From NCBI GenBank assembly GCA_009760855.2, contig WPIO01000040.1, positions 954,501 through 1,018,500 of the forward strand: a stretch of DNA of 64,000 nucleotides, in the 5' to 3' direction. The notes below the pieces were generated by a model that was not told the DNA's origin, did not search any database, and was given only the letters and a program-made list of their open reading frames with translations. Shown piece by piece: positions 12,433 through 61,117 of the stretch (position 1 is the first letter of the stretch; each line of letters begins with the position of its first letter). The stretch is from Cristatella mucedo (lineage: Eukaryota > Bryozoa > Phylactolaemata > Cristatellidae). The position numbers and the translations under genes were made by a program.

Positions 12433-12723
12433 TCAGTAATCTTTCGCTCGGCGCAGGTCCAAATACCCATCGTCGGTATTTCTATTGATTACGAGACCTT
12501 GCGGCATCCGGCACGGTGCCAGCACAGGCTTCGTAGGTCCCCTGCGACCCATGTAAGCGGCCATCATTTCCGCTGCAGACTCGAAGTCGCGTCCGCCGTT
12601 ACGTAGCCGCCCTTCGATCAGCTGACGCAGCAGATCCTTGTCGCAGCCTCGGTCCAAAAGAATTCTCGTCATTGGAAGGTCCATTCGAGCTCGGACTTCA
12701 CGATTGTCCACGAGCGAGGCCAT
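12433..12723 (-). CDS. UBA1: small IAP-type UBA-like protein
   Basis: The 96-residue product starts at ATG 12723 in a strong Kozak context (CCGCCCATGG). Residues 5-15 are the basic lead-in VDNREVRARMD. Residues about 15-58 are a three-helix stretch that matches the spacing of the UBA domain of IAP/BIRC proteins: LPMTRILLDRGC, then KDLLRQLIEGRL, then DFESAAEMMAAYM. The canonical MGF/MGY loop reads RGC. A short Pro-rich linker leads to a C-terminal GYLDLRRAKDY. The frame stays open upstream, but an acceptor (TTTCTCCTGTCAG, exon from 12739) lies 16 bases before the ATG, so upstream codons are probably intron. No BIR or RING is nearby. The UBA assignment is from pattern, the function is unknown. 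Synonymous-only differences from UBA3 in the core argue that it is a real gene. Confidence 0.65.
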   Translation of the reverse strand: MASLVDNREVRARMDLPMTRILLDRGCDKDLLRQLIEGRLRNGGRDFESAAEMMAAYMGRRGPTKPVLAPCRMPQGLVINRNTDDGYLDLRRAKDY

Positions 12724-12739
12724 GGGCGGCACCGTCTGC

Positions 12740-12772
12740 CTGACAGGAGAAACGGAAACGGCGAAGGAAGCA
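12740..12772 (-). promoter_or_regulatory. Predicted 3' splice acceptor before UBA1
   Basis: On the minus strand a pyrimidine-rich run (CCGTTTCCGTTTCTCCTGT) ends in CAG at 12742-12740. The exon would begin at 12739, leaving 16 untranslated bases before the ATG. The 5' exon was not identified. Confidence 0.45.
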
Positions 12773-12832
12773 AAATCTGTGGCATCTGTGGGGACATCCG
12801 TCGTTTGTGGCGTCCATGAGGACATCCGTCTG

Positions 12833-13570
12833 CCGCAAACTGCCGCCAGCTGTCGGGTGGCAGTTTGGAACGAACAATGGTTCGACAGTGCAAAGACAAT
12901 GCGTGCATGTATTTCAACGGCTGCCGAATGAGTACGCGGGGAGTCGCTGCGAGAAGCGGGAGGGCAGGGGGAAGGGCTGGATCCCCCTACACTCCCGGCA
13001 GCCGCCTAGAGCGCTGGCTGCGTAGCTTGGCCGGCGCGCTTACTGCTAATTACCCGCTCGGAGCCGCGAGACTCGCTGCTGCTCGATCGCGCCACCCAGC
13101 CTTGTCGACGGACAGGTCGTCCGGAGGCCTGTCGCAACGCCCACGTACCGTGAATGGAAGCACTTGTATATGTGCCCAGCATGTGTACATTCTCTCGAGA
13201 GTTCCGGCGGCAGCTAGCGCTGCGGCCGCTGCCGGAACTCGAGAGAGAGCTTCGTCCGTGCTGTGTTCAGCCGCTGAACTGTCGAACGCTCGCTCAGCAG
13301 CTTTTCTTTGCGGCGAGCGTAGATCTGCTGACGTCATCGTCTTGCTCCTCTCCGGCTTGTCGTCCTTTCACGCGACTCAACATTTCGCGGTTGCTGAGCA
13401 CTCTCCCTGCGCCCTCCAACCTAGCGCCAAAACTAGTCTAAATAGCTCGATAAAATAGCTCGAAAATCAAGTGCCTCTCGTCTCGCTGTCGCTCAGTCGC
13501 AAGCTGTCTGCTTAGTAAGTGCTCGGTGCTGGAGCCAGGAGACTCGCTGCTGCTCGATCGCGCTGTCGCT
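12833..13570. repeat. ~0.7-kb duplicated segment, copy 1
   Basis: Homologous along its length to 63240-63947. The central 500 bases are most similar; about 150 bases near the UBA1 side are more diverged. The core is flanked by a direct repeat of about 45-60 bases (GAGACTCGCTGCTGCTCG at 13069 and 13536), 470 bases apart. It contains an inverted repeat at 13191-13248, a CRE (TGACGTCA) at 13329-13336, a TATA-like ATAAAATA near 13450, and GTAAGT at 13515-13520 that could be a splice donor on the plus strand. It abuts UBA1, so it could be its upstream region or a divergent promoter. No protein-coding evidence was seen. Confidence 0.85.
13329..13336. promoter_or_regulatory. Palindromic CRE (TGACGTCA)
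   Basis: Exact CREB/ATF consensus, preserved in the second copy of the segment at 63705-63712. Conservation is expected from the duplication alone, so function is inferred only. Confidence 0.3.
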
Positions 13571-60440: not shown

Positions 60441-60444
60441 TTGC

Positions 60445-60605
60445 CCTCCCTCTCTCTCTCTCTCTCTCTCTCTCTCTCTCTCTCTCTCTCTCTCTCTCTC
60501 TCTCTCTCTCTCTCTCTCTCGCTATATGTCTCTCTCTCTCTCGCTGTATGTTTCTCTCTCTCCCTCTCTCTCTCTCTCTCTCTCTCTCTCTCTCTCTCTC
60601 TCTCT
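60445..60605. repeat. (CT)n microsatellite
   Basis: About 75 CT units with a few interruptions (GCTATATGTC, GCTGTATGTT). Confidence 0.95.
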
Positions 60606-60736
60606 CACTCTCTTCCCTTTTCCTACTTCTCCTCGCCATTGCTGCATGCACACCGTTTCGCTCTCGCGTTCCCGCTAGGCCTTACATATCAATGCGCGGA
60701 GTCCAGAACGAGACACGGCGGCTCCTCGCGCGCGCA

Positions 60737-61117
60737 TTAGCGATCCGCCGAGCGAGCCGCTTCCTCCGGCAGGACGTCCGCGACCGAGAGGCCGCGCACA
60801 CCGTCTCCAGGCTGGCCCGGCAGCCAGCCGTTGGTGACCGGCGGCGGCCCGTCGACCGGAGCGACGGGCCGTGAAGGGCTTGGGCGTCTCGCGAGAGGCC
60901 GCGAGAGATGGCCTCGAGGTGGCGGCGGCGCCTCGAGCAGATAGGCAGACATCAACTCGACGGCCGACGCGTAGTCACCCACGCCGCCACGCTGAAGCCT
61001 CGCGGCAATCAGCTTCCTGATGATCCTCGCGTCGCACCCGCGGTCCAGGAGGATGCGGTCGGCGGGCCGGTCCATGCGGGCGAGCACCTCGTCGCCGACA
61101 GACGACAGGCCAGACAT
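60737..61117 (-). CDS. UBA6: diverged IAP-type UBA-like protein
   Basis: The 126-residue product starts at ATG 61117 (MSGLSSVGDEVLARMDRP). The UBA-like helices are recognisable at about residues 16-60: ADRILLDRGC, RIIRKLIAARL, DYASAVELMSAYL. The second half is Pro/Gly/Arg-rich and ends in VADVLPEEAARSADR; the family C-terminal motif is not clear. An acceptor with a good pyrimidine tract (TATTGTGTCGTTTCGGCAG) lies 18 bases before the ATG, and those 18 bases contain an in-frame TAG, so here translation must begin at the ATG. That supports the same start in the siblings. The upstream 61222-61442 segment is duplicated at 57.2 kb. Function is unknown. Confidence 0.55.
   Translation of the reverse strand: MSGLSSVGDEVLARMDRPADRILLDRGCDARIIRKLIAARLQRGGVGDYASAVELMSAYLLEAPPPPRGHLSRPLARRPSPSRPVAPVDGPPPVTNGWLPGQPGDGVRGLSVADVLPEEAARSADR

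Follow-up and report, generated by a model that had tools for sequence, protein, structure and literature searches.

A cluster of small genes encoding a stand-alone IAP-type UBA domain in the bryozoan Cristatella mucedo

Organization of the gene cluster

The stretch of DNA analysed here, called the window, covers 64,000 nucleotides of one contig (C343:954501-1018500) in the 572-Mb, 688-contig assembly of Cristatella mucedo. Six small open reading frames lie in it, five on the minus strand and one on the plus strand, with 7.6–11.7 kb from copy to copy (Table 1). An earlier sequence-only reading had described six homologous small frames with this strand layout and kilobase-scale spacing, and all of them are found at the positions it gave. 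In a six-frame self-comparison of the window (blastp, E ≤ 1e-4), one group is made up of exactly the fragments of these six ORFs, whose alignable core is about 57 residues long. A profile of the six members finds those members again at E 2e-36 to 1e-26, which is circular, and the next of the 1641 window fragments stands at 0.005.

Other parts of that reading need revision. At 12.4 and 53.1 kb, translation probably begins closer to the domain than at the ORF ends it gave (12723 and 53330). The three-helix block that it assigned to all six is incomplete in the 43.4 kb copy, where an alanine run, encoded by a GCG repeat, stands in place of the third helix. In the same copy the start codon lies in a 20-bp tandem duplication (window 43904-43944), giving two ATGs, the first of which soon meets a stop. 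This copy has an eroded look and may be decaying.

Nor is the cluster limited to six genes. With the 24.2 kb protein as query, the whole assembly gave at least 16 matches at E ≤ 0.01, a lower bound since only the best candidates (n = 23) were scored; at least eight are on C343 and at least eight on three other contigs, C222, C67 and C145. Two of the C343 members, C343:938483-938851 and C343:953522-953758, lie outside the window on its left side, so that the cluster comprises at least eight genes across 77 kb, end to end. The genome-wide search that the sequence-only reading had suggested, for further copies and for a BIR-UBA-RING parent, has thus provided two more copies and, on the three other contigs, the BIR-UBA-RING loci described below.

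Table 1. Features of the cluster within the window (window coordinates)
Feature	Position	Strand	Description	Basis
UBA-only gene	12433..12723	-	96 aa from likely start; ORF of the sequence-only reading began at 12825	translation, profile, start/splice context
~580-bp block	12995..13564	-	precedes the 12.4 kb gene; 91% identity with the 63363-63941 block	
UBA-only gene	24174..24539	-	121 aa	translation, profile, genome search, DNA comparison, selection estimate
UBA-only gene	33232..33552	+	106 aa; sole plus-strand copy	translation, profile, start/splice context
Divergent copy	43362..43922	-	186 aa; LGW instead of RGC	translation, selection estimate, start context
UBA-only gene	53097..53330	-	77 aa from likely start	translation, profile, start/splice context
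UBA-only gene	60737..61117	-	126 aa; in-frame stop closely 5′ of the ATG	translation, profile, start context
Second ~580-bp block copy	63363..63941	-	upstream of the 60.7 kb gene	

DNA context of the copies

At the DNA level, similarity among the eight genes is limited to a core of about 60–170 bp, with the exception of one pair. This pair, at 938.5 and 978.7 kb of the contig (C343:938459-938839 and 978649-979030, the latter window 24149-24530), is 94% identical over 382 bp, which take in almost all of the coding sequence, and has unrelated flanks; the likeness runs to the stop codon and 25 bp beyond it, and then ends. For this pair dS is 0.105 and dN 0.024 (116 codons). Its pattern is likely to reflect gene conversion or a very local, exon-sized duplication.

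Repeats are found close to several copies. The block of about 580 bp that precedes two of the genes (Table 1) is possibly a shared promoter or first-exon region, or else a small repeat or mobile element; in its copy at 63363-63941 a 76-bp stretch is present at both ends. A 225-bp repeat, 94.7% identical between window 61222-61446 and 57237-57461, starts about 105 bp upstream of the ATG of the 60.7 kb gene and recurs in the interval that separates this gene from the 53.1 kb one. LINE pieces are abundant in the window. At 34241-37342, on the minus strand, a LINE frame 1033 codons long encodes endonuclease and reverse transcriptase domains, and a 2-kb stretch from 20104 is 94.6% identical to it. 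At 4889-5442 a 14-bp unit, ATGCGTATCACATG, is repeated in perfect tandem (39.6 copies).

The sequence-only reading had raised the case that the shared block might be part of a transposon. DNA comparison around the eight genes found no element boundary common to all copies, and the nearby repeats are placed differently from gene to gene. Similarity confined to the coding core, without a shared element boundary, argues against the domain being a transposon passenger.

Gene structure and constraint

Each gene encodes a short leader, one IAP/BIRC-type UBA domain and a divergent tail. None of the eight cores contains a stop codon, and in every copy a stop is reached about 17–130 codons past the core, after a tail that varies between copies and is poorly conserved. 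An in-frame ATG stands 2–6 codons ahead of the domain in all eight (counted by hand), at varying distances. In two copies an in-frame stop lies within two codons 5′ of this ATG. In the other six the frame is open for 37–120 codons upstream, so a longer N-terminus is possible for them. Acceptor-like sites with good pyrimidine tracts occur just 5′ of the ATG in three copies; elsewhere such sites are weaker or farther away, and two copies have no notable site. The phase from acceptor-like site to ATG varies among copies, as expected for a 5′ UTR. We infer that the proteins start at an ATG within a former internal exon and that the genes have a single coding exon; a leftover splice acceptor may still be in use within a 5′ UTR.

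Pairwise comparison of the cores (Nei-Gojobori, n = 28 pairs) gave 9 pairs in which synonymous change is too saturated to estimate. Among the 19 estimable pairs, omega is 0.06–0.21 in 16 and 0.48–0.69 in three, all of the latter among the 43.4, 53.1 and 60.7 kb copies. Across core pairs, the one young pair excepted, pS is 0.49–0.91 and pN 0.13–0.42. Judged by these codon comparisons, the cluster copies evolve under protein-level constraint.

Identity of the domain

The sequence-only reading had claimed a UBA fold of the IAP type. Direct comparison with libraries gives this little help. In a Pfam scan of the six window proteins, UBA_BIRC2-3 appeared in just one, at E 0.16 and level with two unrelated families. 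A profile of the window proteins had BIRC2 as its sole match in the PDB, at E 1.4, and in a PDB search with a single window protein two Utp10 chains ranked above BIRC2. Foldseek and VIA-align, run with the predicted model, returned no UBA among their matches.

The firm link to BIRC2 runs instead via the IAP UBA exons of the same genome. The cluster profile aligns with the profile of these exons over 52 columns (hhalign, 98.1%, E 1e-13), the exon profile finds the human BIRC2 UBA in the PDB at E 1.3e-4, and UBA_BIRC2-3 is the best Pfam match in all five exons scanned of the eight, at E 9.3e-6 to 0.059, all under the curated cut-off. By profile comparison, the cluster domain and the internal UBA exon found in the BIR-UBA-RING loci of the same genome are homologous. 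Structure prediction gives a confident model: the AlphaFold core has a pLDDT of 86.3 and helices at 6-13, 16-23, 28-41 and 49-59, which in M382 register correspond to XIAP 364-371, 374-381, 386-399 and 407-417 (counted by hand). In the published NMR structure of the XIAP-UBA the helices are 368-372, 375-381, 386-400 and 407-419 (PMC3240630), so the borders of helices 1–3 agree within two residues, and the proline of XIAP position 374 is retained in all eight copies. The confident model and its helix borders may point to a three-helix fold, but no UBA came up among the Foldseek and VIA-align matches.

With the UBA domains of XIAP/BIRC4 and cIAP1/BIRC2 (PF21290; PDB 3t6p), the cluster domain shares a predicted three-helix core with an extra N-terminal helix, the proline at the start of helix 1 and an alignable sequence. 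It differs in that Met382 and Phe384 are replaced while Gly383 is kept, and in standing alone, whereas the XIAP and cIAP1 domains sit between BIR and RING.

In a tree based on 57 columns and one outgroup, all eight cluster cores group together as a single clade on a long stem, with support 95/92, or 100/100 without two long branches. The cluster may have originated before the radiation of the genome's IAPs, as is hinted at by the Gly that it shares with the human MGF where the genome's IAPs carry Asp.

BIR-UBA-RING loci of the same genome

The eight matches outside the cluster are exons on C222, C67 and C145 (L009-L016). All eight are preceded by BIR pieces and followed by a RING, in each case on one strand, and all are flanked by an acceptor and a donor (read by eye), which gives them the look of internal exons. 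From their order and spacing, the BIR pieces, UBA exon and RING would in each case form one gene. The four BIR pieces that were typed match Pfam at E 5.3e-16 to 2.9e-11, and the two typed RING pieces at 9.8e-13 and 8.4e-14. On C222, at least four such loci are neighbours at 6.66-6.82 Mb (L017-L025), a second IAP cluster in this genome.

These loci have in common with the cluster a UBA exon homologous over the 52 columns, including the lead-in VDxRE[IV]RARMDxP. They differ in carrying a RING, splice sites at the borders of the exon (by eye) and, within the stretches fetched, as many as three BIR pieces. The loop also differs, being QMDYP in the genome's IAP exons and DRGCD in the cluster.

Profiles were built from 16 BIR and 8 RING pieces of this genome. 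In the 20 stretches of the IAP loci, the BIR profile has 17 matches at E ≤ 2.4e-13, namely the 16 seeds and one further piece, and the RING profile has 8 pieces at E ≤ 4.6e-34, all seeds. In six frames of the 94-kb cluster region, the BIR profile finds nothing below E 0.13, and the best RING match is at E 0.021; the four weak BIR or RING matches inspected there all lack zinc ligands. When the left side is extended by 10 kb, the BIR profile has no match at E ≤ 0.1 and the RING profile has a single one, at E 0.023. The earlier observation that the window has neither BIR nor RING is thus upheld with profiles from the genome's own IAPs.

Most UBA-bearing IAPs carry a C-terminal RING. Membership of the IAP (BIRC) family requires a BIR; as none was found in the 94-kb region, the cluster proteins were rejected as members. 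Their description as UBA-only IAP derivatives gains support from the BIR-UBA-RING loci elsewhere in the genome together with a cluster region free of BIR and RING, and the eight small genes are, on these comparisons, very probably UBA-only derivatives of IAP genes.

Ubiquitin face and self-association face

The XIAP-UBA contacts ubiquitin through M382, G383, F384, L407, E408, L414 and V415, and alanine mutants of M382, F384 and E408 have reduced ubiquitin binding (PMC3240630). Its self-association involves 369-373, 377, 378, 381, 383 and 386, a surface separate from that for ubiquitin (PMC3240630). We placed these positions on the cluster via the BIRC2 alignment, a register that is backed by proline 374 and the helix borders.

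Scored cell by cell against the commonest residue among the genome's IAPs, the cluster agrees in 0 of 56 cells on the ubiquitin face (seven positions) and in 46 of 80 on the self-association face, one column belonging to both. Position 382 is Arg in seven copies and Leu in one, never Met; 384 is Cys in seven and Trp in one, never Phe. Gly383 is retained in all eight, 408 is Ala, Thr or Val, 414 is Tyr in seven, and 415 is Leu in five and either Leu or Met in seven of the eight. No copy has the ubiquitin-binding motif MGF...LV/LL. Five adjacent columns at the ubiquitin loop are among the fixed differences between cluster and IAPs (permutation P 0.00068, descriptive, with columns treated as independent and sequences taken as given). 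Columns fixed alike in both groups number 11 of 19 in the lead-in and helix 1 and 3 of 38 elsewhere (p 8.8e-5, likewise descriptive), and 4 of the 10 self-association columns differ between the cluster and the genome's IAPs.

These comparisons have to be read with the human proteins beside them. Measured against human BIRC2 at the ubiquitin positions, the cluster agrees in 13 of 56 cells (Gly383 in eight, Leu415 in five), against 9 of 56 for the genome's IAPs. The latter retain Met382, an aromatic residue at 384 and Glu at 408. By identity, however, they are no closer to human than the cluster, having Asp in place of Gly383, which makes it uncertain that they bind ubiquitin themselves. At nine self-association residues of XIAP, the IAP majority matches XIAP at none and the cluster majority at one (Gly383). 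The similarity retained at this face is therefore a likeness of the cluster to its own genome's IAPs and not to XIAP. From the residues at the loop, the cluster UBA proteins would not be expected to bind ubiquitin in the usual way.

Proposed mechanism and alternative explanations

It is tempting to propose that the lead-in and helix 1 face retained by the small proteins lets them pair with full-length IAPs, UBA to UBA. A mixed pair of this kind would hold one ubiquitin-binding site rather than two, and the small proteins would in this manner lower or retune the reading of ubiquitin chains by the IAPs and their ligase output, as a dominant-negative or buffering partner. Pairing is favoured because the lead-in and helix 1, which form the self-pairing region of the XIAP-UBA, are shared with the genome's IAPs. 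The main mechanical objection to the model is that self-pairing of the isolated XIAP-UBA is weak, with a Kd of about 900 uM. As a whole, the statement that these are UBA-only genes, blind to ubiquitin, whose products pair with IAP UBAs is tentative and rather doubtful. The pairing mechanism itself we consider unlikely, somewhat more so in view of the residue counts against human BIRC2 and XIAP. Less probable again is the most specific form of the proposal, in which a tandem family of stand-alone, ubiquitin-blind UBA domains derived from an IAP exon would control IAP ligases in trans by UBA–UBA pairing and not by the BIR groove.

Almost as likely as IAP pairing is that the conserved RGC loop has acquired a new partner. 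Here the D-R-G-C-D loop would be a new surface for a protein other than ubiquitin or an IAP, with the small proteins acting as adaptors; this is also an unlikely reading, falling between the pairing mechanism and its most specific form. RGC is kept in seven of the eight copies, with varied codons and despite heavy synonymous change outside the young pair, and the tails differ from copy to copy. That UBA loops can take partners other than ubiquitin is known from the cIAP1-UBA, which, according to the available text of PMC5823975, contacts TRAF2 through the M and F of its MGF motif and loses TRAF2 binding when these are mutated. The M and F so used are also missing from the cluster proteins. A new partner alone, however, leaves the IAP-like lead-in and helix 1 unexplained. 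The decoy role put forward in the sequence-only reading, a free UBA that binds chains and competes with the IAPs, would suit an IAP-UBA-type domain with Gly383 in every copy and Leu or Met at 415 in most. It is nevertheless improbable, because Met382 is mostly Arg and Phe384 mostly Cys, and the equivalent of E408 is likewise replaced.

The remaining explanations concern the genes rather than the binding surface. If each UBA exon were the opening exon of a larger gene whose other exons went unrecognised, new architectures would result, and the several kilobases between copies, the donor sites that follow the IAP exons (by eye) and the poorly conserved short tails would fit. Yet every copy soon runs into a stop, the likeness of the 938.5/978.7 kb pair ends just past that codon, and among the families traced in the window no second exon-like one of shared fragments was seen, the larger others matching the LINEs, although short or divergent exons would escape such a comparison; we regard larger genes as improbable to the same degree as decoys. 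Finally, the LINE-rich window, the eroded look of the 43.4 kb copy and the 580-bp block and 225-bp repeat upstream of some copies could suggest dead exon copies or functionless transposon passengers. Low omega in 16 of the 19 estimable pairs, cores free of stops in all eight genes and the lack of a common element boundary make this very improbable. Of the readings considered, we therefore continue to favour pairing with the IAPs.

Significance

The expansions of IAP genes in bivalves are a further parallel, sharing tandem expansion, domain reshuffling and conserved exon modules, as far as the available text of the oyster (PMC8917759) and hard clam (PMC7831173) papers indicates. By the same text, the oyster survey identified IAPs by their BIR and removed proteins without one (PMC8917759), and the hard clam paper characterises IAPs by BIR (PMC7831173). 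Because such surveys search by BIR, derivatives without a BIR would be invisible to inventories of the kind these texts describe. In the literature searched, we found no description of a UBA-only family derived from IAPs.

The non-ubiquitin roles of the IAP UBA domain are little understood. A conserved cluster that retains this domain with Met382 and Phe384 replaced makes such roles, namely self-association and partner binding, testable in isolation. If the proteins do bind IAPs, cell-death and immune signalling would have a natural dominant-negative layer and, should the pairing model be true, the inhibitors of apoptosis would have an inhibitor family of their own.
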